DNA from: Limnanthes douglasii subsp. nivea
Taxonomy: Eukaryota > Streptophyta > Magnoliopsida > Brassicales > Limnanthaceae
Assembly (NCBI GenBank): GCA_036936605.1
Contig: JAUPFV010000001.1
Location: 166,990,643 to 167,054,642 of the forward strand
DNA length: 64,000 nucleotides
Reading direction: 5' to 3'
The notes below the pieces were generated by a model. The model was not told the DNA's origin. It saw nothing but the letters and a program-made list of their open reading frames with translations, and did no database searches. The position numbers and the translations under genes were made by a program. Each line of letters opens with the position of its first letter. The stretch's first letter is position 1. This document shows, one piece after another, positions 94 through 53,330 of this stretch.

Positions 94-165
94 TATCGCA
101 AGGTACCTAGATTGAAAATTTAAAACTAGAAAATAAGAGATTGGTAGCTAGAAATATTGATTGTA

Positions 166-5430: not shown

Positions 5431-5552
5431 TTTTTATAGTGGATAAATAGCACATGAAATTTAAAGCTGGCTAATAATTGAAGAATTATTAAAAGGAAGT
5501 GTTCATAGGATATAAGTTCGGGAATTACAAAAGGAGTTTAAGTGTCAAGTGT

Positions 5553-11103: not shown

Positions 11104-11314
11104 TCCTTTTTTGTAACTGATTTGGTTAAAGTTTCCACACGCACCTATAAATAAGGGGTGGGGGTTGATGAATAAACGACGACTTTTACTTTCTGAATTA
11201 ACCTCTTACTTTAAATTTCTCTCTCTCTCTCTCTCTCACTACAATCTTCATTTTCACTCTCTCTAGAAATACGACTATATTCAAAACCAATTAAGAATTC
11301 TTCAAACTTAACAT
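11104..11314 (+). repeat. 5' LTR of element A copy 2 (TATA-to-U5 part)
   Basis: The segment holds a TATA box, a CT microsatellite and a 75-bp end shared with the window start. It ends TTAACA at 11314, directly before a primer-binding site. The LTR extends upstream by an unknown length. Confidence 0.6.
11146..11153 (+). promoter_or_regulatory. TATA box of the A2 LTR
   Basis: TATAAATA lies 169 bp before the LTR end inferred here. It is followed by the (CT)n leader, as expected for a U3-R promoter. Confidence 0.55.
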
Positions 11315-11332
11315 TAGCGACCATAGTGGGAT
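11315..11332 (+). other. Primer-binding site of element A copy 2
   Basis: Identical in sequence and position to the site in copy 1, directly after the LTR end. Confidence 0.6.
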
Positions 11333-11404
11333 ATCGCAAGGTACCTAGATTGAAAATTTAAAACTAGAAAATAAGAGATTGGTAGCTAGAAATATTGATT
11401 CTAA

Positions 11405-12830: not shown

Positions 12831-12898
<68 letters not shown>

Positions 12899-12970
12899 AT
12901 AGAAAGTGGCAAGTTAGCAGCCTTTATTAAAAAACACAATAGTGGATCAAACAATCTGAGGACGTCAATG
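11405..12970 (+). pseudogene. gag of element A copy 2 (broken)
   Basis: It starts at the equivalent ATG (11405) and carries the same early TAA as copy 1. The gag core is at about 12060-12170. One longer open stretch (11858-12181) exists because copy 2 has CGA where copy 1 has TGA near 11876. The zinc-knuckle-like motif at about 12776-12817 is YKYHNDIGHDTAYC, having lost its first cysteine to a TGC/TAC change. An (AT)32 run has expanded in its 3' part. Confidence 0.8.
12833..12896. repeat. (AT)32 microsatellite inside gag of A copy 2
   Basis: The run is 64 nt long. Copy 1 has only 14 nt, (AT)7, at 1594-1607. The 50-nt difference fully accounts for the change in offset between the copies. Confidence 0.95.
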
Positions 12971-15900: not shown

Positions 15901-16168
15901 ATAACGCATTAAAATTCGACTCATTATCAAGCTTCGATGAGGTGCTGCTATAATTTGACGGTAAAATAGATAGAGTTTAAAGTGGGTGATAAGGTCTTGA
16001 AAGGTATTTATCCACAGAATGAATAAGCGGCTTGGGAAGATGGCTCTGAATTAAGAGGGTCCTTATGTGGTAGTGGAGTGAGTCAAGTTAGGTCCATACC
16101 ACCTTCACGATGAAAAAAGGAGACTTGTACAACACCCATGGAATATTGAGCACTTGAAACTATATTGA
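12971..16168 (+). pseudogene. pro-pol of element A copy 2, lacking RNase H
   Basis: The layout is as in copy 1. It has a protease remnant with DTVSS, RT pieces with CIDDMLVK at about 14490, and a direct jump from the end of RT to the integrase zinc-binding region. The integrase pieces are at 15278-15595 and 15562-15843. The same RNase H deletion and the same CIDD substitution are present. Extra stops at about 13949 and 14776 are transitions typical of methylated plant repeats. Pol ends at the TGA at 16166-16168. Confidence 0.85.
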
Positions 16169-16424
16169 GAGTAATTGTTTCTTTCTTTTTTCATTTTTTT
16201 ATTGTTATATTATTTTACTATGTCTATATAAGTGGCATACTATTTCCTCTCCTATTGGGCCCGGGAAAGTTTTAATGAGGTGTCACATTTACATTCACAG
16301 CTATTAAAAAACAATTCTTGGCCAATGATTATTTGAGAAAAAATAATTTTTAGTTATGTTGGGAATTACACAAAGAATGATCATCGTTGGGGTAGTTAAC
16401 AAAAAGTAATTTACGTAAATATTT

Positions 16425-16720
16425 TATTTGAGGTGTTGTACGCTCATTTACAACACATATTTGAGGTTATAATTGTATTTAAGGTGTTATAGGTTCTTTT
16501 AAAGCACATATTTGAGGTCATGATTAGATTTGAGGTACTATACATTCACTTAAATGAAAGATTTGAGGTAATTGTTTAATTTGAAGTGCTAACGTCGTTT
16601 AAATACACTACATGATTCAAAGTGCTAAGGTCCTTTAAGCGCACTCTTTGATTCGAAGTGCTAACACTCTTTAAACGCACTATTCTAGTTAATAACAAAG
16701 TTTGAGGTGTTAAGGCGTTG
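16425..16720 (+). repeat. Degenerate TTTGAGGTGTTA-type repeats, copy 2
   Basis: Same tract as in copy 1, in the same place between pol and the antisense ORF. Confidence 0.6.
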
Positions 16721-16842
16721 TTTTTATAGTGGATAAATAGCACATGAAATTTAAAGGTGGCTAATAATTGAAGAATTATTAAAAGGAAGTGTTCATAGGA
16801 TATAAGTTCGGGAATTACAAAAGGAGTTTAAGTGTCAAGTGT

Positions 16843-18838
16843 TTAAGCACTTACAAAAACAGTAAACAAATAGTAACTAGTGATTTCACAAAAACAAGGA
16901 AAAATAAATTCAATTTTATAATCCTCTTGATCTTCTTGAGTAGAGTGATCTGAGCTTCCTTCCGATGAGCTTTTTTCTTGATCAGAAGTGCCTTCATCTT
17001 CTTCTGACTCAGTATCTTCAGAAGAGTCTTCGGGTACTGGGTCAAGTGCTTCAATTGCATGAATTTCATGGGAATTAGTTTCCACAAACCTGATAGATCT
17101 GCATTTGGAAATGCTACATGAAATTCACGAAGTAGAGTGATTGTCTTCTGCTTCTCGATATTTTTAACAAAAACAAGGATGTTCAGACCACTTTGAGTTT
17201 TGGCAGCCTTCAAAGCAAGAAATTTGTCTTCTTCAAACATTTTCTTGAGTAATTCCATCTCATCAGCTAGTTTCTTTTTTTCCTCCCCACTTATGTAAAA
17301 TGACTCTTGTTGAGATGAATACTTCTTTTGTTCTCGGATACCTCTCTTTCATGTTTGGTCTTGAGCTTAGTTAGCTTAGCTTGATGAGAAGTTTTCAGAT
17401 CCGTTGTTTCTTGTTCATGAATAACTCTCAAATGGCATTTGAGTGATTTTGAGATCTGTTTCGAATTGGCAGTATGACTTTGAAATCAGTTGCTAGTAAT
17501 CTCTTCACATTGTCGTCTAGGTTTGGGGGTTCCATCAAATCTTCTAGGGCAACAGTATCGGAAGAGATTCTCCATAAATGATTTTTGATGAAATTTATGA
17601 GTATATGTAACTAATTAACCCACGCATTCTCTGTCCAGGTAGCCAGCTTGGCAAAGATGTCTTTGGAAGTCTTCATGTGAGCTTTGTACATCCTCAAAAT
17701 TCTTGTATATGGTACCAATACATATAAACAAAAATAATTGACATATAAGTCATGAAAAATAGAAGAAAAGAAAAAGAGAACTTAATGATACTTCTCTAGA
17801 TGAGGTTAAGTTTTGATGGGTTCTCCTTCAATATTTCCTTACCATTCTCCCATGCTCTGGAAATAAAGAAGAACTTTTGTTTCAAGAACTTGTTAGCTTC
17901 AAAAAGATCATCAATTATCTTGAAATCATCTCCAAGAGTCAGATCATATAATGATAATACTGGATTTTTTGAAAGACTAGTCAGGCAATGAAGTCTTTAA
18001 TGGAGAGAGGAATCTTGCTCGGTCTAGAAGCCATAATCACTTAGAGGAGCTTGAACTCATAAATTTAGTCTTTCTTGTGTTGCAAACAGGTCAAGGAGCT
18101 TGGAGTACTCCACTATCATTGGGTCCAGTGTGAATTGAAGTCCTCAATTGATGATCTCATGATAGACCACCAATTAATCTGATCCACAAGAAAGTACAGT
18201 CTCTCCTCTTACTCGTAATCAAAGCACCACATTGTCTGGCAGTCCCCATAGTTTCCTTAGTCGTTCGGACAGTTCTTGACTGTAATATTCATATGTCACA
18301 TTCTTCAATGACATGATATATTCGAAGAGGACTCATTTTAAGTTTACACTTAGAGTGGCAGCAACATCTTCAGGAAGTTCAATAGACTATTTCTTTTTCC
18401 TCTCTTTTTTATCTGCTGCCACCTTCTTTGAAGCATCACCATCGGTTTCAGAAGTAGCATCTCTTTCTGTAACTTCGAGGTTGGAATCTAATTCTGTCAT
18501 TCCATCTTATTCAGATGTTTTTCAGAAGCTTCATCTCGCAGTTGAGGAGGATTATAGCTTGCTGCTAGATTTTGATGTTGAGTCTTCAAAGGAGTTTGTT
18601 GTGACTCTGGGTTGGTCTCAACAATCATCTTTGGGTGAGGAGAAGATAGTTTAGGATTTTATCTGATTTTATGTATATGACTTTGTGGATTATTGTCATC
18701 TTCAAAGTCTCTCATAGCTAAAAATGGTTTTCTTTTGGGAGAGAGGTTTTGAGAAGATGAAGCCTTTCATCGAGTTTGAGATGTTTCTTTGCGTGAAATT
18801 TGAAGCAGCTCGGTGTTGACAAGTGATGGAGATTTTAT
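16843..18838 (-). pseudogene. Antisense additional ORF (aORF) of element A copy 2
   Basis: On the minus strand a continuous reading frame begins near 18838, where an ATA sits in the expected start position (probably a lost ATG). It runs KSPSLVNTELLQISRKETSQ, then through ASSSQNLSPKRKPFLAMRDF, a proline/glutamine-rich part and TELDSNLEVTERDATSETDG to the lysine-rich DKKERKKK. A Transposase_28-like middle and the acidic C-terminus at 16843-17085 follow. It is interrupted by stops (CGA to TGA, a TAA, a TAG) and a few frameshifts. A role in the element's cycle is not established. The preserved domain order and upstream TATA box suggest it was once a real gene. Confidence 0.6.
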
Positions 18839-18935
18839 GATTCCCTATGAAAGTTTTGGTGAAATAAGGTTTTCACGTTGCTCTCTTTCTCTCTCTAGAA
18901 GTTGAATAAAAAATAAAAATAACTAAAGAAGAGGT

Positions 18936-18943
18936 ATTTATAA
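18936..18943 (-). promoter_or_regulatory. TATA box facing the antisense ORF of A2
   Basis: On the minus strand TATAAATA lies about 100 bp upstream of the aORF start codon position. A CT/GA-rich leader follows, which would give a 5' leader of about 70 nt. Copy 1 lacks this segment. Confidence 0.5.
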
Positions 18944-18947
18944 GAGG

Positions 18948-19185
18948 ATGATGAAAAAGTGATGAAATAGAAAATAGTCATAAGAATATTAATGGTTGAT
19001 GATGGTTATTGGAGGGACAAAATGGGAAAAGAGGGTGAATGGTTGATTGACAGTTGTTGAATCACGGGCACTCTGGACTAGGATATGTAGAATAGATCAC
19101 CTTGAGGACGACATCTGGCTATGTCCGACTTCTGAGAATTTCACCACCATCGCGTTCCGTCTGGGCCTGGCGCTTTCATACCAGG
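18948..19185. other. No gene recognised
   Basis: The segment starts AT-rich and becomes GC-richer after 19060. It includes a purine-rich stretch (19015-19038) that could be a polypurine tract, but no LTR start could be confirmed. Confidence 0.35.
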
Positions 19186-19426
19186 TGTTGGGAATGAATA
19201 TGGGGGCTCGGTCCGCATATTCCGTCTCCATATATAAGTAAGAACAACACAATCTCAACACTAGTATGATATTGTCCACTTTGGCGCCCGAAGGCCCGCA
19301 CGACTTTGGTTTTGGTCTACTTCCAAAAGGCCTCATACTAGTTGAGATATGTTATTACTTATATACCACGGATCCTTCCGATGTCTAACCGATGTGAGAT
19401 ATGAGACTTTGGTCGCCACCCTAACA
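19186..19426. repeat. LTR-like segment TGTTGGG...CCTAACA
   Basis: The 241-bp segment has near-inverted ends (TGTTGGG and CCTAACA), as solo or terminal LTRs do. No matching target-site duplication was seen (ccagg on the left, aatcc on the right). Orientation is uncertain. Confidence 0.45.
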
Positions 19427-20184
19427 AATCCTCCTCTCGAACAAAGAACCACTTTAACCTCCTCTCAATTGACTTCCATTCATCCACTCTAATCAGGTTG
19501 GCAGTCTACCTGACTTCTAGAAGCACTACGGATGTTACTGCTCACCTCCTATTATAGCACTTGTCATGGGCTTAACTATTCTGCCTGTGCGGCGCCTATG
19601 TCGAGCGCACGTTATGGCACAAGCCAGCCATTCCCATATGGCACGCAAGTAGTTATGAGAGTTGGATATGAGGGATCGAGTATAAGTACCTGCATATGAA
19701 GACGTCTGTTAGTACTGGCAGGTCGTAGGAGCATATGAAGATCTGCATGGAGAAAGTCAGGCCGTGACACTCTACCACACCCAATTCGTGAGCGTCCTCG
19801 CCACAAACACCCCGACTGGATCTGGAAGGCCATGACCAAAGTCTTGTTACTTTGCCCATACTCCACAATGAGACTTCTTAAGTTGCTAGTCCCCACCTGA
19901 CATACTTGGGAAGCTCCTATGTTGGCGCACTGCTCCTCCATCCAATAATGCTTACGTCACACTTTTTTGTCGGGTGATCATCCACTCCTGGCCTTATGAT
20001 TTCCCCCCACAACCTAATAGGGTCACCTTGCGCACTCCGTACTTACTCCACATGCCTCTCTTGGACCTTACAAGGTAGCAGCCATCTCCGCACGCATTCG
20101 TTATTATTAGGCCCCACGATGAGGAGTCATCTTGGCGCATCCCGATCTCCATACATGCCTCTCTTGGGTCTTATAGGGGAGCCG
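19427..20184. other. GC-richer non-coding repeat, probably the body of a non-autonomous element
   Basis: The segment is about 760 bp and distinctly GC-richer than the regions downstream. It has no recognisable protein in any frame. It ends where the B' gag begins at about 20185, so it either inserted into or replaced the rest of B'. Confidence 0.4.
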
Positions 20185-20193
20185 ACCTTAATT

Positions 20194-21515
20194 TTATTTT
20201 AGTTCAGCAAACCACTCCGGTTGAACCCAAGGTCCTCGTTTATGTCTAGATTGCTGGCTTTGAGCTAGGGCAGCTGGGTGGGATTGAGCCTTGACCCTGT
20301 TCTGACCCTGTCCGGCTTCCTTTGCCTTGTACCCGGACTGATTCTGGTTTTGATTAAGTGCAGCTGGAGAAGACCTCACCTGCCGGTGCACCCTGGTTTT
20401 CTTTGTTTCATCCACATTAATCTGCTTGCCGACCTGATTCAGTAAACCTCCCCACGTCATGGCCTTTTTCATGGTGACTGAATCAACCAGATTGACAGGG
20501 TTCAAACCCTGCCTTAGAGAAGCTATTGTTACTTGTTCAAAGCAATCAGCTAATCCATTTTTGGTGTTCACAAAGCGACTTATGTACTCTTTCAAAGATT
20601 CATTTGGTTCTTGGGCACAATGGATTATAGTGTCTCCATTTCCTTTAACTTCTTTGCTTCCCACGAATTGCCTCTGAAAGGCCACCCAAAAAGTGTCGAA
20701 ATTTCTAATGCAACCCTGTGGCAAACTATTGTACCACTTCAGAGCACTCCCCGTAAAATACTGGGAGAATGCTCGACACAGTAGCTTATCATCATCGTCA
20801 AAGTTCATCATAATTTTTTTGAATTGCTCCAGATGGTTATCTGGATCTTTACTACCATCATACTTCTCCATCTTTGTGTTGTCAAACCTCTTAGGAAGGT
20901 TTCTGGACAGTATTTTGGAAGATAATGGAGATTTCTCCAATTCCGTCCACGACTAAAAACGGTATCTTTGTTGGGAGTCGCAAAGATACTTGGTTCATCA
21001 TGAAAGGCAAATGGATCCATTAACAAGCGGTCTACGTGTCTCCGGCCATGACTGTGACTATCAGACGACCCTTTACCAAGATACCTTTTCAACCTTCCAT
21101 GCCTGTCCCTTTTGCTTGAGTATTTTTTAACAAGCTTATGTTTATTCTTAGAACGGCCTTCATCACTGCTGGATGACATGGATTCCTCGACTCCATCTTC
21201 ATTTGAGAAGCTGTTGGAAGATTCTGAGTCTGAATCTGAGCTCTCCACCGGTTTAGATCGGTGAGACTTCTTTGAGCTAGCATGAGTCTTTTTATTGCTC
21301 ACATGGGTTTTTGACAGCTCGTGCTCTCTTGGATTGTCAGTATGGTGAACTGCTGACACTTTTGACTTCTCTTTCACACCCAATTCTGCCCTTTTTGCAG
21401 CCCTCAAGGCTTCTATCTCAACTTTCAGTCTATCTTGCTCCTCGATAGTATATTCATCATTTTCTCCCACCACTTTTGCCAAAGCTGGTGGTATTTCCTG
21501 CTCGTCCGGATTCAT
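20194..21515 (-). pseudogene. gag of B' (one frameshift)
   Basis: The frame starts MNPDEQEIPPALAKVVGEND at ATG 21515. It runs through a charged, serine-rich region (ESSDSDSESSNSFSNEDG) to the gag core, LPKRFDNTKMEKYDGSKDPD then NHLEQFKK. The later gag reads FTGSALKWYNSLPQG and EPNESLKEYISRFVNTKNG. A 2-nt deletion relative to B near 20930 shifts the frame, so it reads as two overlapping ORFs (21515-20808 and 20940-20194). Otherwise it is the best preserved gag in the window. It would form the particle shell. The C-terminal zinc-knuckle part is missing because the unit is truncated. Confidence 0.85.
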
Positions 21516-21570
21516 CCGAACCGATCTTTCTTGATGGTTTTGAATGCTTGATTCAGGCACCTTCTTCTCC

Positions 21571-21590
21571 CACTATGGTCGCCAATTTGG
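21571..21590 (-). other. Primer-binding site of B'
   Basis: Directly inside the LTR the minus strand reads CCAAATTGGCGACCATAGTG. Element B has the equivalent site at about 28819-28838. Confidence 0.6.
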
Positions 21591-22127
21591 TGTGAATAAT
21601 TTTAGTCTGAGGGTAATTTTGTCAGGAGTTTTGTAACGTTGCAAGGGTATTTAATGTTTGGGTAGTTTGTAGTGAGAGATTTGAGCTGCCTGGTTGTATT
21701 AAATGTTCATTACCCTCATTAATGAAAGTGGTTGGGTATTTATACCCTTAATTATGGGCCTCATGGGTTTTCGGGTCAAACTCATGAAACCGGGTCGAAT
21801 TCAAAGACCCATTAGTTTATTAAGCAGGTTGGTAATTAGCTTAGTCATAAAGTGATTAGTTTTTAATACTTTAGTTCTGTTCGGATGGTTCAGTGGGTGG
21901 TTTTTGTCCGAATTTCCCCTGTCCGGTTTCTACAGTGAGTGGTGAGAATATCCGGACTCATCCGTAGCCCCTTTTTAGGTTATGTTCGAAGGCCTTTGGT
22001 AAAACCTAAAAACTCGCTCATGAGCATCTGAAATAATGTCCGGACAGATTTCGATTTGTATAACGGTTTTATCCGGACTAGCAAATCTCTCATAAGCTCA
22101 AAAGTTTTGTTCACAGATCGTGGGACA
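21591..22127 (-). repeat. LTR shared by B (3') and B' (5'), 537 bp
   Basis: On the minus strand it runs TGTCCCACGATC...TTATTCACA, a standard TG...CA LTR. It matches 28839-29377 along its whole length and homology stops at exactly the same base at both ends. By eye divergence is around 6 percent, with small indels. Confidence 0.9.
21738..21745 (-). promoter_or_regulatory. TATA box in the shared B/B' LTR
   Basis: TATAAATA on the minus strand, also present in the other LTR at 28985-28992. Confidence 0.6.
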
Positions 22128-23056
22128 GAAAACGGGGAGCAGAATGTGGAGATAGGGAGGCCAAGAAGATTAAAACCTCCAAGGGAGATGAAGTTGCTCT
22201 CCGGGCTCCAGAGTCTTTTCATCCAGTTGATCCAACAGACCCAACCCAAGCAAAGGAAATACCAAGTGATTTTCACACCAAAGAGGGCGCCGGAGGGGAC
22301 ATCAACATCGATAGAGTTGACATCAGTGGGCTTCAAGGGATTGGTCTTTACTTTAATGACCTTGAGAAGGATGATTTCGCTGGCCCTTACCGTACAAACC
22401 TAGTCAGCCATCATTAACACACTCAATTCTGACAAGGAGAGTTTGTCCAACGACCTCCTTATAATCAAGCAGAGTCTCGAGGCATTAAAGAAAGAAAATG
22501 AGGAGGTGATAAAGGGGAAGGAGGACTTGGCCACCAAACTGGCCACTTCGGGGGGGGGGGGGGGGTTGTCACAGAGCTTCAGTCCAAGTATTCTGACTTG
22601 GAGAAAAATCTTTCTACTTCGAAAGAGGAGGTGAAGGCCAAAGATAACGGCATTCAGACCCTGACAAATGAAAAAATATCGCTTGAAGATGCTGTGTCCT
22701 GGGCTAAGCAAGAGAAAGATGACTTGCTAAATTAGCAGGAAAAGACAATCCAAGCTAGGATTGATGCATATACCAACGATGTGATCGACTCCCAAGAACA
22801 AAGATATGATGAGGTCAAGTTAGACATGATCCTACTCTTTCATCAGAAATTTCCGAAGAGGACACTCGGGGACTTATGGCGATTCGTGGAATATGTAGAC
22901 CTTCATCACCATACTATGGCTGATGGTGATAAGAACGGTTATTCTAGTGGTTAGGATGACACCACTGATGAGGATGAAAAGACTGGAGAAAGTCCAGATG
23001 AGGAACCCATCGATCCCAAGAAAAAACCAAGTGAAGCTGGGACATCTAAGAACTAA
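22128..23056 (+). pseudogene. Antisense coiled-coil ORF of element B
   Basis: On the plus strand, opposite to B's own genes, a frame begins at the LTR edge (KRGAECGDREAKKIKTSKGD) and runs through a proline/acid-rich part. A coiled-coil stretch follows (LEALKKENEEVIKGKEDLAT, then LQSKYSDLEKNLSTSKEEVK). The C-terminus is acidic then lysine-rich and ends PKKKPSEAGTSKN at TAA 23054-23056. A frameshift near 22400, another at the 16-nt G run (22550-22565), and two TAG codons (22733, 22952) break it. No in-frame ATG was found at its left end. It occupies the same position as the aORF of element A but has a different sequence. Confidence 0.6.
22550..22565 (+). repeat. 16-nt G homopolymer within the antisense ORF
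   Basis: The frame before the run is offset from the frame after it, so length change in this run explains one of the frameshifts. Confidence 0.9.
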
Positions 23057-23278
23057 AGTCCTCAAAATGCCAACTATCTTTTAATTTTGTGTTTGAACTA
23101 AAGTCCTTGATGGCCAAGGCATTTTTGTAATCGTGTCCGGCACTTTACCGGACAAACCTTCTCTCTTAAAAACTTCAAAGTCCTTGGATGGCCAAGGCAT
23201 TTTATATATTTAATATCACTCCCCGGTATATGTCGGGCAATTTTATCTTACATATTATTTAATTTTGATGGCTTGTGT

Positions 23279-26200
23279 TCAAATGGATTTTAGCACCTTA
23301 TCACCTAGTTGAAAATCCTTCCTTTTGATTTTAGAGGCAAACCTACTTCTCATCAAAACCTGATAATGTGTGGCTCTGAGGTGAGCGTGAACTCTTCTTT
23401 CATCCATCAAATCAAGCTGGTTTCTTATGGCCACTTCGTTAGCTTGTTTGGAAAATTTATGGACTTGAAATGAAGGGAGAGTGGCCTCTATGGGAGCTAT
23501 AACATCCATCTCATCTACTAAATCAAAAGGAGACTCTTGTGTTGCATCCCCATGAGTGGTTCGGTAGGCCCATAATACTTATTGTAGATAACTTGGCCAT
23601 TTTCCAGCAGCTCCCTCTAGATTTTTTTTAGACCAGACAGGATAATCTTGTTAGCCACTTCAACTTGACCATTTTCCTGTGGATGGAAAGGAGAGGAAAA
23701 ACAATATTGAATGCCTCTAGTAGCACAGAAATTCTCCATCTCATTGTTATCGAATTATGGTCCATTGTCAGTAGTTATCTTTGTGGAACCCCAAATCTAC
23801 AACAAATGTTAGACAGGATGAATTTTATAACAGCTTTCGAAGTAGTTCCTGCCAATGGGGATGCTTTGAGCCGTTTTGAGAAGTAATCAATAGCAACAAT
23901 TATAGTTATGCACCCTCCGGACGCTATGCGTAGAGGTCCTACTAAATCGAGCCCCCAACAAGCAAAAGGTATTGGCTCAGAAATTGACTCTAAAAGGACT
24001 GCTGGAATATGGATTTCATTACTGTATCTTTGGCAAGGATCACACTTCTTCACCAATTCCTTGGCATCTTGCATTATGGAGGGCCAGTAGTACCCAGCCA
24101 ACAAAACTCTTCTAGTTAGAGCCCTGAATCCACAATATGTTGATCCCTCGCCATCGTGTAATTGGGAGACCACTATTTGGGATTCTTTGATCCCCGCACA
24201 TCGTAAGAGAGGTTTACTGAAGGATCTTTTATAAAGAATGTCTCTTAAGATGCTAAAACCACGAGCCTTGAATTTCACCTTCCTTGCTACTGCTTTTTCC
24301 GGAGGCAAGATGCCATCTGAGAGATATTGGAGAAGAGGAAATCTCCAATCTTGGGGTTGTCTTACTTGTATATTCAAGCTCCCTTCTGCCTTATCCGGAT
24401 TGATTTGAATGGATGGGCACTCTAACACATGAATCCAAGGGTAAGACTCAGTATAGGCTATGGTTTCCAAAGAGTCTGCTAGCGTATTTTCTGTTCGGGG
24501 TATGTGCTCATAAGTGATGCTTTTGAAATTAAGTGCCACTTTTTTTAGAACAAACAAGTATTTAACCAGTTGTTCCTTCTTGGCTTCGGATTGACCTTGT
24601 GCGTGATGGATAAGGAGTTGAGAATTGCTCATTAACCTGACCTTTTTGGCTCCACAAATAAGAGCTAATTTCAAGCCAACTATAGCAGCTTCATATTCAA
24701 ACTCATTATTGGAAGCCCTGAAAGCAAAACATATAGCTTGGTACATATTGTCGTGGTACAGAGAGGTTAAACATATCCCAGCACCACAACCCATGGTACT
24801 GGATCCACCATCAGTACGGATAACCCATACCTTTTTATCTTTTTCACCGGTTGCTTGCTTAGTGCCTTTGTCTGAATGGAATTCAACCAAGAAATCAGCT
24901 ACAGTTTGAGCTTTGACTGCCGTTCGAGGGGGAATTCAATATCATTGTCTCCCAGCTCCACTGACCACTTGGTCATTCTTCTTGAAATGTCTGTTTTTTG
25001 AAGAACATTCTTCAAGGGAAAAGACGTCCGGACGATGATCGAATGAGACTGAAAGTAGGGCCTCATTTTCCTAGCAGCAATTACTAAGGCCAGTGCTAGT
25101 TTTTCAAGTTTCAAGTATCTTTTTTCTGCATCAATCAAGCTCTTGCTGATATAGTATATTGGTGGAGGATAATTATCCACCTCCCTTACTAGCACTGTAC
25201 TCAAAGCACACTCAGAAACTGCCAGGTATATGTAAAGTGTCTCTCCATTAATAGGTTTAAACAAAGTTTTAGGGGAGGATAAGTGCTTCTTAATTTCATC
25301 AAACGTCTGGTCATACTGGGGAGACCAATTAAACTCTTTCGCACCTTTCAAAGTTTGAAAAAACGGGGCACACTTATCCGAAGACCTTGAGATAAAATAG
25401 TTTAGAGCAGCCAACCTCCCTGTCAATGTTTGTACTTCTTTAATATTCTGACGAGGCTCCATTTGTAGCAAAGCATTAAGCTGGTCTGGATCATGATGTC
25501 TCCCTTTCTCACTTATTACATACCCTAAGAATTTCCCAGAATGTACTCCGAAAACACACTTCTCTATGTTCAATTTTAAATTTACTTTCATTAAATTGGC
25601 AAAAGTTTCTTGGAGATCTGCCAAGTGTAGCTCTTCGTCCATACTCTTTACCATTATGTCGTCGATATAAACTTCCATATTTCTTCCATCTGATTAGCAA
25701 AAGCCTTGTTTACTAACCTCTGATAAGTAGCCCCAACATTCTTTAATCTAAACGACATCACCTTGTAACAATGGAGGCCCCTATCAGTAACAAACTTAGT
25801 ATGTTCTTGATCTTTTGGATCTACTTGAATCTGATTGTACCCGAAGAAGACATCCATAAAGGACAACAACTTGTTCCCGGATGTGGAGTCCACCAACTGA
25901 CCAATTCGGGGAACTGGATATAAATCCTTCAGGCAAGCTCTATTGAGATCTGTAAAATCGATGCACATACGCCACTTTCCATTTTTCTTCTTTACCAACA
26001 CCGGATTGGCTGTCCATAAAGGGTATTGAGATTCCTTTATGTGCCCCATTTTAGTAAGCCGGTCAACTTCTTGAACTATGACATCAGCTTTCTCTTTAGA
26101 AAAAGCTCTCCTCTTTTATACAACAGGTGCTATATCCCTTCGGATGGACAACTGAAGTGATATAATATCTGCTGGTACTCCGGTTACTTCAGCATTGCAC

Positions 26201-26301
26201 CAAGCAAAAACATGCTGACGGTCTTTCAAAAAAGCTAACATTTTCCCCTTTAATTCTGATGTCATCTTGGACCCAATCTTGACACTTTTTCTTTCAACCA
26301 A
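23279..26301 (-). pseudogene. RT, RNase H, second RNase H and integrase of element B (frameshifted)
   Basis: RT begins near 26301 (FAWCNAEVTGVPADIISLQL) and has KKNGKWRMCIDFTDLNRACL. After a frameshift near 25670 it has the intact catalytic VYIDDIMVKS. The RNase H that follows ends FPLKNVLQKTDISRRMTKWS. A frameshift near 24890 leads into the archaeal-type second RNase H with RTDGGSSTMGCGAGICL. It carries SNSQLLIHHAQG where a catalytic SDSQ is usual. Integrase has LHDGEGSTYCGFRAL and CDPCQRYS, with one zinc-binding histidine apparently lost, then GLDLVGP and DYFSK. After another frameshift near 23775 come the HPQENGQVEVANK region and the tail LGDKVLKSI. The domains are complete in order but cannot be made as one protein. 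Confidence 0.9.
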
Positions 26302-26396
26302 AGAGTGAGTTTCAACTTCTTCAATAGGTATTAAATGCCAGGGATCTCTCTGGGGTCATCAATTTCACCCTCTCCCCCAGAGGGCCCCTCAAATTT

Positions 26397-28763
26397 CTAA
26401 TCCTCACTGATGCGAACTGCCCCCAAAGTTCGAGGGGCCAGTGCTATTGCATAACACTCCATTTCCACCTTCTGACTGCTCCGGACAACTCCCACTTGTC
26501 CTTGCACAGCGTATTTCAAACATTGGTGGACTGTTGATGCCACAACATACATTCTAGAGATCCAAGACCTCCCCAAAATGGCATTGTAATAAGTGGGAAA
26601 ATCCACCACGATAAAGAGTATCCTGACCATCTTCTTAAAAGGGCCTTTACCTAACAAAACCTCTTCCTCAAACTCCCCGATCACATCAGTTGAGCTTCCA
26701 GTGAAACCCACAATTGACCTGTTCGAACGCTGAATTACTACTGGGTTCTTCATTTGTTTGTAGGAAGTTAAAAAGAGGATATTGGCTGAACTACCGGTCT
26801 GCAGCAAAATTCGCCTTATGGCATTGCCCCCAATGGATGCTCCTATTACGACAGCATTTTCATGGGGACCATCTATGTCCCTCAAGTCATCCTCATCAAA
26901 AACAATGAATGGAAATGGGATTTGTGATTGATAGGAAGTCATGCCTCCTTCTAGTTGAGTAGCTAGAGTATGAATATGCCTCTTTCTCGAAGAAGAAGTT
27001 GGTGCAGTCATGGTGTCTCTCCCAAATATTGTAAGTGACTCGAAAAAACTGATGAGGCCGGACACCGTCTTGCAATGCTCTGTGATAACACCCACCTTGT
27101 TTCGAGTTGGATCATGATCCAAATATTCTGATTCTACATCAAACCTCTCAATTATCACTATTGCCCCATCCGGAGCTGATGTCCCTGCGTTTTTCGGGCC
27201 AGTCCGAGGAGCATTATCACGCCTATTTCCACCTCTTCTTTTAACATGTGCCCCTAACTTCCCTCTCTCAATCAAATTCTATACTTCTTATTTCAACGCG
27301 ATGCAATCTTCAGTGGTATGACCAGTATCACGATGATACTGAAAAAAACTGTTATTTCGACTTTCTTTTGGTGATTGTAATGCAGCCGGCTTCCTGAAAT
27401 GTACTTCATCTTTCGTTTTATCATAAATGGTAGCTACATTTTCTTTTAGTTCAGCAAACCACTCCGGTTGAACCTAAGGTCCTCGCTTATGTCTAGATTA
27501 CTGGCTTTGAGCTGGGGCAGCTGGGTGGGATTGAGCATTGGCCCTGTTTTCACCCTGTCTGGCTTCTTTTGCCTTGTACCCGGACTGATTCTAGTTTTGA
27601 TTTGGTGCAGCTGGAGCAGACCTCACCTGCCGGTGCACCCTGATTTTCTTTGTTTCATCCACATTAATCTGCTTGCCGACCTAATTAAGTAAACCTCCCC
27701 ACGTCATGGCCTTTTTCCTGGTTACTTAATATACCAGATCGCCAGGGTTCAAACCCTGCCTTAGAGAAGCTATTGCTACTTGTTCAAAGCAATCAGCTAA
27801 TCCATTTTTGGTGTTCACAAAGCGACTTATGTACGCTTTCAAATATTCATTTTGTTCTTAGGCACAATGGATTATAGTGTCTCCATTTCCCTTCACTACT
27901 TTGCTTCCCAGGAATTGCCTCTGAAAGGCCACCCAAAAAGTGTCGAAATTTCTAATGCAACCCTGTGGCAAACTATTGTACCACTTTAGAGCACTCCCTG
28001 TAAAATACTGGGAGAATGCTCGACACAGTAGCTTATCATCATCGTCAAACTTCATCATAATTTTTTTGAATTGCTCCAGATGGTTATCTGGATCTTTACT
28101 ACTATCATACTTCTCCATCATTGTGCTGTCAAACCTCTTAGGAAGGTTTCCGGACAGTATTTTGGAAGACAATGGAGATTGTCTCCAATTCCGGCCACGA
28201 CTAAAAACAGTATCTTCATTGGGAGTCGCAAAGATATCTGGTTCATCATGAAAGGAAAAAGGATCCATTAACAAGCGGTCTACGTGTCTCCGGCCATGAC
28301 TGTGACTATCAGACGACCCTTTACCCATATACATTTTCAACCTTCCATGTCTGTCCCTTTTTCTTGAGTATTTTTTAACCAGCTTCTGTTTCTTCTTAGA
28401 ACGTCTTTCATCACTGCTGGATGACATGGATTCCTCGACTCCATCTTCATTTGAGGAGCTGCTGGAAGATTATGAGTCTGAATCTGAGCTCTCCACTGGA
28501 TTAGATCGGTGAGACTTCTTTGAGCTAGCATGAGTCTTTTTAGTGCTCACATGGGTTTTTGACAGCTCATGCTCTCTTGGATTGTCAGTATGGTGAACTG
28601 CTGACACTTTTGACTTCTCTTTCACACCTAATTCTGCCCCTTTTGCAGCCCTCAAGGCTTCTATCTCAACTTTCAGTCTATCTCGCTCCTCGATAGTATA
28701 TTCATCATTTTCTCCCACCACCTCTGCCAAAGATGGTGGTATTTCCTGCTTGTCCGGATTTAT
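26397..28763 (-). pseudogene. gag-pro of element B (start codon lost, several stops)
   Basis: The frame is continuous from 28763 to 26397 apart from point stops. The start ATG of B' is ATA here (28763-28761). A TAA interrupts the serine-rich region near 28467 (GAA in B'). Further stops lie near 27856 and in 27300-27750. The gag core LPKRFDSTMMEKYDSSKDPD is at about 28140. The zinc-knuckle remnant QYHRDTGHTTEDC lies at about 27340. The protease region holds LLQTGSSANILF near 26790, where VDTGSS is expected, so the catalytic aspartate is replaced by glutamine. The domain ends near 26397. Confidence 0.85.
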
Positions 28764-28838
28764 CCGAACCGATCTTTCTTGATGGTTTTAAATTCTTAAT
28801 TCAGGCACCTTCTTCTCCAACTGTGGTCGCCAATTTGG

Positions 28839-29377
28839 TGTGGATAATTTTAGTCTGAGGGTAATTTTGTCAGGAGTTTTGTAACGTTGCAAGGGTATTT
28901 AATGTTTGGGTAGTTTGTAGTGAGATATTTGAGCTGCCTGGCTGTATTAAATGTTCATTACCCTCATTAATGAAAGTGGTTGGGTATTTATACCCTTAAT
29001 TATGGGCCTCATGGGTTTTCGGGTCAAACCTATAAAGTCGAGGCGAATTCAAAGACCCATTAGTTTATTAAGCAGGTTGGTAATTAGTTTAGTCATAAAG
29101 TGATTAGTTTTTAATACTTTAGTCCTGTTCGGGTGGTTCAGTGGGTGGTTTTTGGCCAAATTGCCCCTGCCCGGTTTCTACAGTGAGTGGGTAGAAAATC
29201 CGGACTCATCAGTAGCCCCTTTTTTAGGTTATGTTCGAAGGCCTTTGGCAAGACCTTAAAAATCGCTCATAAAGCATCTGAAACAATGTCTGCACAGATT
29301 TCGGTTTGTATAACGGTTTTTTCCGGACTAGCAAATCTCTCAGAAGCTCAAAGGTTTTGTTCAGAGATCGTGGGACA
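28839..29377 (-). repeat. 5' LTR of element B, 539 bp
   Basis: TG...CA LTR on the minus strand matching 21591-22127. A TATA box is at 28985-28992. The base after its right end belongs to element C. Confidence 0.9.
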
Positions 29378-30857
29378 CGTGTCCCTTCCTGATGCGTCGC
29401 GATCCCTGTTGGTGTAGAAATCTGGAAACCACCCCCGCATCTGCTGATACTTGAACCACTATCCGTTCTGACTATCCACTCAAGAAATTCTACTAAGAAG
29501 TCTGCTAAAGCTTGCCCTTTAATATCCGTTCTCGGTTCAAAATCAATATCGAAGTCCCCCAACTTTACCGACCATTTGGGCATACGGCCAGAAATATCGG
29601 GTCGCTATAAAACACTTTTTAGGGGGAATGATGTTCGAACCACAATAGAGTGACCTTGAAAATACGGTCGCATTTTGCTCACATAGTAGACAACTTTAGG
29701 GATCATATCCTCTTCTTGAACTATAGTCGCGCTCACCGCATGGTCCGACAACGCTATATATAGGAACAAAATTTCTCGGGGTAGTGGTTTTGTCAGCAGC
29801 GTCGGGAATGATAAGTAATTTTTTATGTTGAGAAACGCTTCGGTACATTCAGGTGTCCATCTGAAATTCTCTGTATTCCTTAACACTTGAAAGAGCGGTG
29901 CACATTTGTTAGAAGATCGCGAGATGAATCTGTTCAGCGCTGCAAGTCGTCCGGTCAAAATCTGTACCTGCTTAATATATCTTGGGGTGTCATACTATTT
30001 AGGGAGTCTAACTGGGTTGGATCTGAATCTATCCCTTTCTCGCTGATCATGAACCCTAGGAATTTTCCGGACCCAACTTCGAAAGAGCAGTATTCTGGAT
30101 TCAATTTGAGGTTCACCCTTCCAAGGTTATTGAATGTTTCTTCAAGGTCAGCAAAATGATTTTCGTCTGAGACGCTCTTGACCAACATGTCGTCAATATA
30201 GACCTCAACATTTTGCAAAATTTGTTCCTCAAAGACCTTATTCACAAGCCTCTGATAAGTAGCCCCTGCATTCTTCAGACCAAATGGAATAACCTTGTAA
30301 TAGTATAAACCCCTCCCTGTGATAAATGTGGTGCTTCTATGGTCTCTTGGATCCAGCTATATCTGGTTATACCCTGCGTAAGAGTCCATGAATTATAATC
30401 ACATGTTTCCTGACCTTGAATCTACCAACTGGTCAATCCTCGGCATGGGAAATGGGTCCTTAGGACACGCTCTGTTGAGGTCCGTGAAGTTCACGCACAT
30501 TCTCCATTTTCCGCTTTTCTTTTTTACCAAAACTAGAATTGCTGGCCAGCGCGGATACTGGGACTCCCTTATATGTCATACCTTCGTTAGACTTTCAACC
30601 TCTAAAATAATTGCCTCTGCCTTTTCTTGGGAGAAAGCTCGGCGTTTTTGCGTTATTGGTCGAACACTAGGATTTATGGAGAATTGATGATAAATAACAC
30701 TCTCAGGTACTCCTGTGATATCTTCTGAGCACCAGGCAAACAAATGTATTTTTTGTCCAAAAAAATAAATCAATTTCTTTTGAAAAAATGGGGACAAGTT
30801 TACACAAATCTTCAAAACCTTACCTTTAGAAAATTCGTAAGTTTTCACAACTTTCAT
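29378..30857 (-). pseudogene. RT-RNase H of element C with start of second RNase H
   Basis: RT begins near 30857 (LFAWCSEDITGVPESVIYHQ) and continues KKKSGKWRMCVNFTDLNRAC with some stops. It has an intact VYIDDMLVKS near 30190. RNase H follows in 29958-29605 (RFISRSSNKCAPLFQVLRNT). The frame from 29583 contains PRTDIKGQALADFLVEF and then RTDSGSSISRCGGGFQ, the opening of the archaeal-type second RNase H. This stops at base 29378, where element B starts. The dual RNase H assigns C to the Tat lineage. Confidence 0.85.
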
Positions 30858-31188
30858 CGGTAAGTAATAATCCTAAGATCTCCGTAGGATCGTCTTCAGG
30901 ATCCGATCCAGGGTTCGACCCCACTAACTGCTAATCCCTTACATCAACCATCTCCTCATGTGATTTTGTTGCCAGTGCTGCTCGGTAACATTCTATCGCT
31001 GTCGTTTGGCTGCTTCCAACAATGTTGACATTATTTCTGAACACATACTTTAAGCACTAATGAACCGTAGAGATTTCGACATGCATCCTTGACAACCAAG
31101 ATTGGCTGAAAATTTCGTTATGTGATGTGGGAGCATCTACGACTATAAACAAGACCGCTATTTCCTTTTTGAAAGGCCCTCGTCCGAG

Positions 31189-32148
31189 CTAGACCACACC
31201 TTCGAACTCACCGGCTATCTCTGTCGATGATCCTGTAAAACCAATAATAGTTCGATCAGATTTCACGATCACTAGTCTATTCCGAAACCCGGAGAAAGTT
31301 GATAAGAAAATAATGTTCGCCGAAATCCCAGTATCCACCAATATTCTCCAAACCTCCTCACCACCGATAGCCGATACAATTACGATCGCGTCTTCATGAA
31401 GACCGCCAATGTCTCTCATATCATCATCAAAGCACAGAATAGAAGATGGGTTCTGGTATAAGTGAGGCGAAACTCTTGCCTCTAACTGTGTAGCCAGATT
31501 AACCACGTGCCTCTTCATAGAAGAATTGGTGATACCTGCCATTGAGTTACCCCCAAAAATAGTTAGAGACTCAAATTACTTACACAAGTCGCTTACCATT
31601 CCTCGTGCCACAGGTAATACTTCCTCAATTACTCCAATCAAATTCATGTTTTTGTCCGGGTCGAAATACTCAGTGGACACATCAAATGAATATGTGACCT
31701 CTGAGATCACCAAAGAGATTTCCCGCTTCAGCGCTGCTACAATCTGTTTAGCCGCTCTACTTAGCTAAGCTTGTTTCTTTACGTACTCGAGCAATTTTCC
31801 ATTATCAATTTTTACTTGCACTTCTTTCTTGAGCGCAATCCAATCATTGGTATCATGGCCTACGTCTTCGTGATACCGACAGTAACGATTGTTTCGTCCT
31901 TCACGAGGATTTCCGATCGGAAATGGATTCCGGAAGTGTACACTTTTCCTTGACTTGTCGAAGATAGTTGCAACACATTCGGTCAAATCAGTGAAGTAAT
32001 CAGGTCGAACCCATTTATTCGATATGGGTCGGTAATTATTTCCGTGGTAACTATTTTGTACCCTCTGAGTTTGATTCTCTAATCCTTTCCCGTTTGATTG
32101 ATGTGTTGCTGGTGCTACAGTAGTTATCGGTTGTGGCTGAGGAATCAT
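31189..32148 (-). pseudogene. Zinc-knuckle and protease region of element C
   Basis: The first frame (32148-31765) has a zinc-knuckle-like CRYHEDVGHDTNDWIALK in which the last cysteine is replaced by tryptophan. The second (31542-31189) carries the retropepsin active site ILVDTGISANIIF, with the catalytic DTG intact, and the flap-like IIGFTGSSTEIAGEFEGVV. A frameshift or stop separates the two parts. Of the three elements here, only C keeps a DTG triad. Confidence 0.8.
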
Positions 32149-32439
32149 GATTGTTTTTTGTGAAGTCTTTTGATACGTAACAACCGAAGGTTAAGTGGTT
32201 TGTTGGATTTGTGCTCCCAACTCTGATGCTTCAGTTTCTTCAATCAGGATCTACTTTTCTACCTGAGCTAACAAGGCAGAAAAGGTAAAAGCATGTTTCT
32301 TCGTTACAACTTGTTTCATCGGACCAGGCAACAAGCCTAATCTATAACCAGTCAGAGCCACACTTTCATCACAATAGTCAAGATCAGTCTTCACATCTAT
32401 AAAGCGTCAAGTATATCCCTGAAACTTTCTCTAACCTTT

Positions 32440-33509
32440 TGTCAGAAATTGACGATTGTATCTCCATTAGCTCGGAAGTTCTTAGTTCCTACAAATTACT
32501 ACCTAAACATCATCCATAACATACTAGAGTTTTTAATGTATCCCTGTGGCAATCGATTGTACCACTTTGATGCTCGGTCTTTAAATTTCATTGAGAATGC
32601 TCGACAGATCAGCTTGTCATTGTTGTCAAAGCTTAACATAAAATTCTTGAAAGCTTCCAGGTGGTTGTTAGGGTCTTTCTTTCCGTCATATTTTTTGAGC
32701 TTCGAGATATCAAAGTGCTTCGGGAGATGTCCCGACAAGATTTCATCTGATAGGGGGGATGACCTCCAATTATGGTTGAGGCTAAAAGTTCTGCCTCCTA
32801 AACCTTCTACATGACTTGCAAGTAACCCTTCTTCAAGTGGGTTTGCGAATTGGCTTCCGGCCCTGTAGCCATTAGACTGGCTCTGTGATGGAAATTGAAA
32901 CTGGGGGCCATTCTGTTGTTCCGTGTTAACTGTGACTGTACCGACCTTTTTAGCAGACGCCAGAGTCACTTTGTTGACACTGTCACCTTGAGGTTTGACT
33001 ATCTTTGCTTGCTGTGAGTTACGCCTTCGAAGTTCTCGCTCTCTCGTCATTCTTTTATCCTTTCTAAGGCATCGGAAATCTGTGTCCGGGGAAGAAAACC
33101 CACACATATCTTCCCCAATAGAATATTTTTACCCATTTTTGGCCCGAAATCCAGACTTCTTTCTTGCCACCCCGTCGAGCCTTCGCACTCGAGTTCTGCC
33201 TTTGTAAAAGTCCACTTCATCCCGATCGACAACGTGATTGGATTCTTTCCCTTCTTCACACGATCGTTCGCTTCGACCATCGAGCTGGCACTTCTTCTCA
33301 GCCAAATTCATCTTTTTCTTAGCATTTAGCTTAGCAATGTCATCCAACAACTGTTGCCTGGTCATGATTAGGGTCGACCGTTTTTTTCGGCCTCGATTAC
33401 CCTGATCGTCATCACCAAACAACTCTTCAGAGTACCGACCCTCTGAATACGACATCTCCTTGTCGGAACCTCTCTCATTTTCCTTTCCCTTTCTAGCCTC
33501 GGTATTCAT
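32440..33509 (-). pseudogene. gag of element C (frameshifted)
   Basis: ATG at 33509 starts MNTEARKGKENERGSDKEMS and continues as a highly charged N-terminal region. A frameshift between 33129 and 33107 separates it from the part with the core LPKHFDISKLKKYDGKKDPN then NHLEAFKN. The downstream gag helix is DRASKWYNRLPQGYIKN. The product would be the particle coat protein. The next part of gag up to 32148 contains more stops. Confidence 0.8.
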
Positions 33510-33593
33510 TCCTCGAATTTTAGGTTTTTTATAGGGTCGAGAATTTGGGGAACCTAATCTTCGAGTATCTCTCTTTCCCACAAACGGTGCCAA

Positions 33594-33937
33594 TGACAAG
33601 TCTCAGAATATCTAGGGTGGATTATCGGGTAACGTATATTGATAAACGGTGTCAGGCGAATAAGTACAAAGTTCTAGAGAGAGAAAGTAGTCAAAATAAA
33701 GTACCAATGATTAAAAAGTACCCTTTTTGGGGAAAAGGATCTTCCTTATATAGTGACAGTAGTGAGCTCCACTTTCACATGCTATGTTTACTCTAATTAC
33801 ATGTTAGCCCCCGTATTTACATTTATGTCTTACATTTTCTATCTTTATAAGTAATTCCTTATAGATTTACACATTATAAATTTGACCTCTTATTATCCTT
33901 AGCATTTGATGCCCTTATCAATCTTAATTACCTAACA
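33594..33937 (-). repeat. 5' LTR of element C, 344 bp
   Basis: On the minus strand it runs TGTTAGGTAATTAAG...AGACTTGTCA. A primer-binding site TTGGCACCGTTTGTGGGAAA begins at 33593, directly inside. A TATA box (CTATATAAGG, minus strand) is at 33744-33753. There is no second copy to confirm the outer edge. Confidence 0.7.
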
Positions 33938-35280
33938 TAATCTAATTTTTTTTTATTTTGCCTTTATCATTCTGTTTTATATAGTTTTAAACTTTATTAT
34001 TGTTTGGTTTTGATTTATTACTCTATTGGTTTTATTAATAAATATATATCTACATTTCTACCTATCTTATTAACTTAGATTGTTTAGCAATAATTATATT
34101 GCTAAATTTAGCTAATATCAACGTTGTAAATTGATTATGTCAATTTTATCGACATGACTAATAATATTAACATTTCAAAGAGTATATAGCCACAAAATCT
34201 TTACAACTGTTTTTTTTTGTTATGCGAAAATATCATTTGTGTCCGTGAATTTTGGAGTAGATGCAAATAAAGATTGGTAAAATATTATGCTATATTGTTT
34301 GTAACAAAAACGTTTGGGTTAAACGTGGTACAACAATTCAATTTATTTTATTTTAAAAAGAAAAAAAATATCATAAATGAGGCAATTTTGGTTGAATATG
34401 ATTGTCGCATGGAATCGTATCAGTCATCATAGGACGCTTATCTAAATAGGAAATTTCAAAATTAACTCATCATTAAAAACATAAAACAATTGAATTTCTT
34501 GAGCTTATACACATCATTCTCCAATTAATTCGGTAATGCATTAATGAGATTTGATATTTTTTTAAAAACTGAAACACTGACAATTGACAGATATAGTAGA
34601 TTTTGAATATATCTCATATTGGCAAAGAACAAAAATCAAATGTAGAAAAAAATTATATTAAAAGAAAAATCACATTTTTCAAAATACTGTTACATACATA
34701 ATCGTCCTAATATATATATATATATATGAATAACGAAAAAAAAAATTATACAAAAACCCAGCTTTAATTCTTCTAGAATGTTAATTGATAGAACAAGCTC
34801 AAATATCACGTATTGCATAATCATAAGCTCCAAATAATAAAAACATAAGATATGATCTAATTCGGCAGGCAAACATAGAAATAGGACAACTTGATATAGA
34901 TAATCATAACAATTTATCCAAACTTAAAGACTAAACAAAGAAAATAAAAACCAAACAAACCACTCATTCTGAAAGAGTGAGACGGTCAAATTGAAAAAGA
35001 AAATCAATTCCATTAAATAAAATATTTATTAAATTTGTTATATACAAACATATTCTTGTAGTGATCCTAAATAATTTGTTATATACAAATAGTAGAGTAA
35101 GAGGTTAAACGCTTATAAATAACAAAAAAAACTGAGTTAAATAGTATAGTTGAGTATATATTTGTCATCATGTCATGTGTATGAGTCATATGTATAAAGG
35201 TGTTTATTTATCACTTTCCTTTACTAACATGTAAGCAACAAAAGTTGTATAACATTCAAACAAGAAATCAGAATCTATAG
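33938..35280. other. AT-rich intergenic stretch, no gene recognised
   Basis: Short AT runs (for example 34709-34727) and frequent stops in all frames. No domain or repeat family was recognised. Confidence 0.5.
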
Positions 35281-51814: not shown

Positions 51815-51823
51815 ATATAAATA
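51815..51823 (+). promoter_or_regulatory. TATA box of the cysteine-rich peptide gene
   Basis: ATATAAATA is followed by a short non-coding leader and the ATG at 51894. The spacing predicts transcription start near 51845-51855. Confidence 0.55.
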
Positions 51824-51893: not shown

Positions 51894-53330
51894 ATGAAAA
51901 CACATATCATATTGTTGACGTTGGTTCTCTATTTTACTATTCACTCGTTCGTGTTTGCTGTTTCTGAAGGTCAAAAGTTTTTATATTTCATTTATCCTTA
52001 ATGATCTAGTTACATATTTTATTTGTTCTAACTATTTAAGTTTATAAACTTAGATGATATAATTAAAGATACTTTGTATATCTACTTGTAGTTATTATTT
52101 CTAATGTAATTGTTCAAGATGCCCTAACAATAATAAAATATTAATATTCTGCAGGAAAAGGTTTTAGTGCGGTAGTTTCTCATGGAGAGTGTGCGGGCAA
52201 AGGTAATTTAATAAACGATTCTAAATTTAATATTTTAACATATCTATCTTCGAGACACGATATTTGGTGAGAAAGATGTTTGGGTTTGATCCATCCGTGT
52301 CCTACTAGAATAACATTCATATACCAAAACTATAATTTGAACGGCCATCTCCTGGTCAATCGAGAAAATAAAAAAAGAGTATTCATAAAAATTATTATGC
52401 TGGAAATAATAAAACTAAACCGAAAGTTATCATAATCAAGGCCACTAAATAATTTATCTAAACACACTAATTTAATTTGTGGTTACCAACCTTTATAATA
52501 CTCGTGTAAAAAATATTATAAGTACTTCATGTTTGTCAGTTGCCTCATTTTAATCTTTTTTTTTTTTATTTTTGTATAAACCGGTCTCCTACGTTTTAAA
52601 AAACGTAACAAACATATCATTTTTTGTAATAAACAAGTCCCTCATGTTTGTAATAAACAGGCCTCTCACGTTTTCAATTTATAATAAAAGAGGTCCCTCG
52701 CATTTTAAAAAATGATCTCTTTGTTACATTTTTAAAACGTAGGGGACCGGTTTATTACAAAGACAAATAATAGGGACTGATATGTTACAAGTGGCAAACA
52801 TGGAGGACCTACAGTGTTTTTTACCCTAATATTGGTATTATGTATCAAAATATATAATTAAATTCCAAACAAAGAATATGTTATGTTATTAAGATTTAAG
52901 TGTACCATAATAATTTTGGCAAGTAATTTATATAGGGTATGATTAACAAATTATAAAAAAATCGATATGATAATCTATAATTTAAAAATATTGGGTTGTC
53001 AACCCATTTTAAATTTACATACAAATTTAACTAGTTTTACACAAAAACTTTCAACTATTAAAAAATTTAAACAATAGATTTGTTATTGATAGTTATATAT
53101 ATTTTTATTGAACAGTAAAATTGTGGACTTTAAAAAGAGAAATTTTCGATGGCATATGTAGACCGATAGCTGGTCCATCAGACTGTCGGAGTGATTTTGT
53201 AACGAAATATGGTGAGAGATATGTTGAGAAAACCAAGCTCAAATCCTGCACATGTCATGAGAAAGAGAAAGTTGGAGAAAGATACCAACGTTTGTGTCGA
53301 TGTTTAGTGTTCTGTGATAATAACTCATAA
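51894..53330 (+). CDS. Secreted cysteine-rich peptide (defensin-like class, family unassigned), three exons
   Basis: Exons: 51894-51969, 52155-52202 and 53116-53330 (stop TAA at 53328-53330). Both introns are phase 1 with good borders (GAAG|GTCAAA...CTGCAG|GA and AAAG|GTAATT...AACAG|TA), and the joined frame is open for 112 residues. Residues 1-22 (MKTHIILLTLVLYFTIHSFV, then FA) form a signal peptide. The mature part has eight cysteines, at about 38, 56, 65, 86, 88, 102, 104 and 108. The spacing is C-x17-C-x8-C-x20-C-x-C-x13-C-x-C-x3-C. The final CxC-x3-C recalls plant defensin-like peptides, but the usual CxxxC is absent, so this is a distinct cysteine-rich peptide. The many charged residues suggest a soluble extracellular signal or defence peptide; that role is inference. 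A MITE sits in intron 2. It is the only undamaged gene in the window. Exon 2 could be skipped without changing frame. Confidence 0.7.
52504..52826. mobile_element. Fold-back MITE inside intron 2 of the cysteine-rich peptide gene, 323 bp
   Basis: The left end (GTGTAAAAAATATTATAAGT, then ACTTCATGTTTG) pairs with the right end (reverse complement GGGTAAAAAACACTGTAGGT, then CCTCCATGTTTG). Inner arms also pair (AAACCGGTCTCCTACGTTTT near 52580 with its complement near 52740). Flanks TAATACTC and TAATATTG may be a diverged 8-9 bp target duplication, as Mutator-type MITEs make. Confidence 0.7.

Follow-up and report, generated by a model that had tools for sequence, protein, structure and literature searches.

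SCR, the male determinant of the S locus, is described as the pollen ligand of SRK (PMC13033167). The marks given for it are eight cysteines, with glycine in the C1-C2 interval and an aromatic residue in the C3-C4 interval (PMC6355930), and the connectivity reported for SP11 is 1-8, 2-5, 3-6 and 4-7, i.e., the first cysteine pairs with the eighth (PMC10624595). The layout published for SCR and SCRL peptides from three Brassicaceae species is CX(9-10)CX(7-10)CX(13-23)CXCX(10-27)CXCX(3-7)C; the same account places 34 SCRLs in the pollen coats of three species and, from a public RNA-seq set, lists 15 SCRL genes with expression specific to mature anthers (PMC9856046). In Leavenworthia, the SCR-like gene LaSCRL was found by eye from eight cysteines in short open reading frames. 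As described, it has two exons and shares an S locus with LaLal2, a receptor kinase gene (PMC3653793). PCP-B/ESF1 peptides and plant defensins (PCP-A) are likewise small secreted peptides with eight cysteines, and they are recognized by signatures of their own, CxCC and a core CxxxC, respectively (PMC9856046).

We compared with these systems a gene in a window of 64,000 nucleotides (the whole stretch of Limnanthes douglasii subsp. nivea DNA that was analyzed). Like the SCRL family of A. thaliana, A. lyrata and B. oleracea, it has a signal-peptide exon, a second cysteine in GxC, aromatic residues between C3 and C4 and a CxC-CxC-x3-C end. It differs from that family in its first cysteine, which is carried by a 48-nt cassette exon and not by the last exon. 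The order GxC2, C3, aromatic, C4xC5, C6xC7, C8 is also that of SCR/SP11 (S8-SP11; PDB 1UGL, 6KYW), although SP11 is only 20% identical to exon 3 in an alignment and obtains at most 2.3 bits from the profile of Limnanthes relatives introduced below. LaSCRL is likened to the gene by description, differing in its two exons and its S-locus setting with a receptor kinase gene. The SCRL family itself is already known; the small cysteine-replacing exon is the unusual part.

Gene Model and Family Membership

The original prediction held that positions 51894-53330 carry a single intact gene with three exons, matching phases, an open frame and perfect splice borders. Exons, phases and frame are exact. 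On the + strand, exons of 76, 48 and 215 nt are joined across introns of 185 and 913 nt, both GT-AG and both in phase 1, to give 112 open codons, including eight for cysteine, and a stop. The splice borders are perfect as far as GT-AG is concerned, but the intron 1 donor, GTCAAA, is weak, with a score of 1.9 on approximate matrices; the donors of two relatives score little better (L018: 2.1; L016: 2.5). A candidate TATA box, TATAAATA, was spotted by eye on the + strand at 51816-51823, 70 nt 5' of the ATG. Exon 1 (51894-51969) encodes MKTHIILLTLVLYFTIHSFVFAVSE, accepted by eye as the predicted signal peptide, and ends in phase 1. A signal peptide on a separate first exon, as expected of an SCRL, is seen by eye in the relatives too, and their first exon measures 73-85 nt in 16 of the 17 other modelled copies (64 nt in the exception, L042). 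Its phase 1 in these copies was a condition of the caller itself and thus lends no independent support.

Intron 1 (51970-52154; GTCAAA...CTGCAG) leads to exon 2 (52155-52202), a symmetric cassette exon (phase 1-1) that encodes GKGFSAVVSHGECAGK and is the source of the first cysteine, the one that brings the peptide to eight. Its splice score of 14.8 is equalled in none of 200 shuffled introns, and similar exons occur in relatives. Intron 2 (52203-53115) contains an inverted-repeat (MITE-like) element at 52506-52826, to which no strand is assigned. A DNA search of the plant's own genome finds this element in at least 39 further places on five large contigs (83-88% identity), a lower bound because 40 of 1758 candidates were scored. 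By model, alignment and profile, exon 3 (53116-53330, stop TAA) comprises the SCRL domain with cysteines 2-8, in the order GxC (as DGIC), aromatics between C3 and C4 (F, Y, Y), CxC, CxC and C. This C2-C8 layout occurs once in the six frames of the window and in none of 150 Markov-simulated 64-kb sequences. The gene at 51894-53330 is real and not a chance pattern.

The cysteine spacing had been predicted exactly (C-x17-C-x8-C-x20-CxC-x13-CxC-x3-C, or 17-8-20-1-13-1-3) and was held to be unusual. From C2 to C8 (8, 20, CXC, 13, CXC, 3) it lies inside the published SCRL ranges, so that six out of seven intervals fit and the two CxC pairs are not novel; the C3-C4 interval of 20 falls in the B. oleracea range only. 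What does depart is the first interval, 17 residues across an exon junction versus the published 9-10. The eight cysteines, the glycine and the aromatic residue that mark SCR are all present. The claimed departure from the plant defensin pattern is borne out as well: no CxxxC is found in the core, where defensins have one. The wider statement that the peptide lacks CxxxC goes too far, as C7-x3-C8, the only cysteines three residues apart, is a CxxxC.

Direct searches recovered little. The 112-residue model found no candidate sharing three words among 5.8 billion protein sequences. Against Pfam, neither the whole protein nor exon 3 matched anything at E up to 10, and a repeat with exon 3 again gave nothing at E up to 1. 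When the model was searched against its own genome, an assembly of 1.78 Gb whose five large contigs measure 293-405 Mb, 13 places had an E of 10 or lower, its own three exons included. The last exons of five out of seven relatives pass the PF06876 cut-off of 23 bits; the window protein does not, and relatives L012 and L021 are likewise without a PF06876 match. In the genome, PF06876 gave 28 listed matches, every one of them above the cut-off, distributed over three of the five large contigs; the window copy is absent among them. Contig C112 carries 11 of them at 308.8-309.0 Mb and three at other places, contig C334 has four at 250.7-250.9 Mb and one at another place, and contig C1 has nine. 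The 11 on C112 lie in tandem on one strand (308.85-309.04 Mb), and the four of these copies that were read (L046-L049) consist of two exons around an intron of 82-100 nt, with all eight cysteines on the last exon.

Membership is decided by a profile of 15 same-genome relatives above the PF06876 cut-off, from which the window copy was left out. It matches exon 3 with 43 bits (E 2.1e-12), while the next-best open reading frame of the window reaches E 0.02 and 200 shuffles of exon 3 with fixed cysteines reach at most 13.6 bits. The window gene is thus a divergent SCRL member by descent, not by the Pfam cut-off. The novelty that had been claimed for it as a family is thereby removed, by the rule laid down with the claim itself that a strong profile match to a known family would do so. 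Three other searches were set aside. The PDB sequence search gave three weak matches (best E 0.062), treated as chance. Pfam on 141 open reading frames of 34-64 kb in the window yielded 30 families with an E of 1 or lower, each with one open reading frame and with a best E of 0.019 among 25 of the 30, and these were also put down to chance. A single-sequence structure of exon 3 was all-helical (mean pLDDT 74.8; five models from 41 to 75), which is unbelievable for a cysteine-rich peptide, and was discarded.

Cysteines on the Second Exon

In the two-exon relatives, the last exon carries the first cysteine, mostly as Trp-Cys and nine residues N-terminal to the cysteine of GxC (L011: VWCPKTEVFEGTC; L047: FWCPYQIVFPGTC). 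The equivalent in the window is LWTLKREIFDGIC: in the alignment, the first cysteine is gone and the C1 site is now Thr (W-T). Exons 2 were called in relatives by splice-score rank, a length of 27-78 nt divisible by three and an open frame, blind to cysteine; the caller permitted a longer C2-C3 gap, by which L019 was found. As a separate observation, the last exon of L041 (the continuation of L019) is an SCRL copy that lacks C8 and in which a long, serine-rich insert separates C2 from C3. For most copies, the score of the called exon 2 is reached in 0-3 of 200 shuffled introns, and the calls are weak for L043 (9) and L052 (14).

Counting cysteines on exon 2 plus those on the last exon, five copies are 1+7 (window, L018, L012, L044, L050), four are 2+6 (L019, L043, L052, L051) and two are 0+8 (L016 and g162, the latter with exon 2 called by eye and exon 1 not found). 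The other totals are seven in g77 (1+6), nine in L042 (3+6) and six in L021 (0+6). Left out of the count were g152 (no credible exon 2, with 106 of 200 shuffles as high), L046-L049 (no room in their introns), L014 (a stop from the chosen ATG in exon 1), L015 (a duplicate of L016) and L045 (no exon 1 in 2.1 kb). In L017 and L020, which come from the own-genome search, the pattern is absent.

A sum of eight thus occurs in 11 out of 14 copies (p 1.5e-4 when the exon 2 numbers are permuted among copies), where the permutation overstates independence because the copies are related, and where candidates had partly been seen by eye and through a cysteine-requiring search before the cysteine-blind caller was written. 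The proportion is 10 out of 13 without the window copy (p 5e-4) and eight or nine out of 11 without close duplicates (p about 2e-3). The weaker test for an even total gives 12 out of 14 (p 0.011), or nine or ten out of 11 once duplicates are removed (p 0.046 or 0.015). Copies whose last exon lacks one of the eight cysteines all carry one on exon 2 (5/5). Where both C1 and C8 are missing, exon 2 carries two in four out of seven copies, and one, three and none in the others. These counts, set against the loss of C1 and C8, are roughly what replacement of a terminal disulfide would look like in sequence. The original prediction had the gene itself right and missed the oddity that its first cysteine sits on a separate cassette exon, where it appears to replace one lost from the main exon.

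The exon 2 peptides are mutually alike (none of 300 shuffles as good) and resemble the start of their own last exon (none of 1000 shuffles), each in 11 copies with L042 left out. The clearest case is L018, with REVFNGQC against TELFNGHC; in the window copy, the likeness is limited to GxC. This resemblance suggests that the start of the last exon was duplicated in tandem long ago. In a poorly resolved tree, the best supported group of relatives (98) unites L051 (2+6), L016 and L015 (full last exon) and L021 (0+6), and these mixed cysteine states imply that the state changed within the group. The last exons of L015 and L016 (C112:114.2 and 151.7 Mb) are one residue apart with 37 Mb between them, a recent dispersed duplication. 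Some of the relatives' copies may be pseudogenes.

Selection, Surroundings and Alternative Readings

Survival of an open gene amid decayed sequence had been taken to suggest selection or a recent origin, and signs of past selection are indeed found. All 112 codons are open although the four relatives compared share just 37-46% identity. The nearest is L012 (46% identical over 57 codons), with identities of 0.58, 0.67 and 0.49 at the three codon positions; third positions are the least alike versus three out of four relatives and equal lowest versus the fourth. When neutral change was simulated over half the distance to each relative, in a simulation that is generous to drift because it includes no indels, 194-311 out of 5000 exons stayed open, and only 5-20 out of 5000 were open with at least six of the seven cysteines. 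Codon positions and simulation support past selection on the window copy.

The gene is single inside the window but not beyond it. In the surrounding 254 kb, four SCRL exons lie in tandem on the + strand of contig C1 and span 120 kb (167.043, 167.077, 167.152 and 167.163 Mb), the three extra ones being 34, 109 and 119 kb downstream of the window copy. The same flanks hold 22 open reading frames of at least 170 residues outside the window. Among the 19 scanned whole, nine have retroelement domains and ten no family; of the remaining three, one was scanned in part (no family) and two are of low complexity. No S-domain kinase was found among the 19 whole-scanned and one part-scanned of these 22. 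Within the window, positions 1-7174, a decayed retroelement-like stretch, are directly repeated at 11239-18465 with 99.1-99.3% identity, a recent duplication. Positions 18001-34000 form a block of 40-44% GC (23-35% around it) with broken retroelement open reading frames (RT, RNase H, integrase and gag domains) and a 94% repeat (20191-22127 / 27438-29377). A search with one retroelement open reading frame of this genome gave 82 hits of no more than 50% identity; those that carry a name are scattered across eudicots and include no Brassicaceae, and several are unnamed.

With decayed elements all around, the gene could be an SCRL pseudogene whose decay is recent enough for the frame to look open: the C1 of the family is lost, the donor of intron 1 is weak and a MITE-like element sits in intron 2. 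Against such divergent relatives, however, the complete frame, GT-AG at both introns and the rarity with which neutral simulation keeps frame and cysteines together render this quite improbable. A reading with somewhat more to it, yet still unlikely, is that of an ordinary SCRL gene in which exon 2 is a splicing remnant, the mature peptide having the seven exon 3 cysteines, or a linker with an incidental cysteine. Since exon 2 is symmetric, skipping it preserves the frame and leaves seven cysteines; moreover, two-exon relatives exist (L011, L046-L049), and SP11 allele S46 is reported to have seven cysteines (PMC7530648). Against this reading, relatives repeatedly show an exon 2 with usable splice signals, its cysteine number tracks the loss of C1 and C8 in 11 out of 14 copies and its sequence resembles those of other copies beyond shuffles.

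The layout also fits the definition of SCR itself, which would make the gene the male determinant of a non-recombining S haplotype that is filled with transposons and includes a linked SRK. S loci are described as transposon-rich, and SCR genes were spotted there by eye from their cysteines (PMC3310759, PMC3653793). The absence of an S-domain kinase from the flank open reading frames scanned leaves a claim to be SCR unsupported, and four tandem SCRL exons with matches on three of five large contigs contrast with the single SCR per haplotype described in PMC3310759; we regard this identity as very improbable. The chance of another cysteine-rich class is close to negligible. Size, secretion and eight cysteines would suit PCP-B/ESF1 or PCP-A/defensins, but the core CxxxC of the latter is absent, PCP-B/ESF1 was dropped on its missing CxCC (signatures as given in PMC9856046), no other Pfam family matched and the profile match to SCRL relatives contradicts it.

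Proposed Role of the Peptide

We favor, at a probability of roughly 70%, a divergent SCRL gene (PF06876 / CRP0830) for a secreted SCR-type ligand, likely passing from the anther to the pollen surface, in which the terminal staple is re-made by cassette exon 2. The ligand would have about 90 residues and a C2-C7 core folded like that of SP11/SCR. With C1 lost from the last exon, the symmetric exon 2, which probably originated long ago as a copy of that exon's start, would be translated and bring a replacement cysteine that pairs with C8. The occurrence of SCRLs in pollen coats and mature anthers, together with SCR as the ligand of SRK, points to release from the anther to the pollen surface and to a receptor in the stigma or pistil on which the ligand would act. 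A role in pollen probably holds here, by analogy with the SCRL family as studied in Brassicaceae. The original prediction had named pollen-pistil signalling as a frequent role of such peptides, in keeping with what is known of SCRL/SCR peptides in pollen-stigma signalling.

A tentative extension, which we consider possible but on balance doubtful, is a switchable terminal staple: where C1 and C8 are gone from the main exon, the cassette exon would either restore the disulfide between the N- and C-terminus (one cysteine) or form a small loop of its own (two cysteines). If true, one gene could yield two differently stapled ligands, with exon 2 in or skipped, and new recognition specificity could arise in this way. 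A cysteine-bearing cassette exon was not found for any SCR-type gene in the literature searched, mostly at title and abstract level and with few subscription journals. SCR-type peptides hold their fold while nearly all other residues vary. A family whose cysteines move from exon to exon while most members retain eight in all would, if true, show the rewiring of such a conserved scaffold, and the matches show SCRL gene clusters within a large, transposon-rich plant genome.
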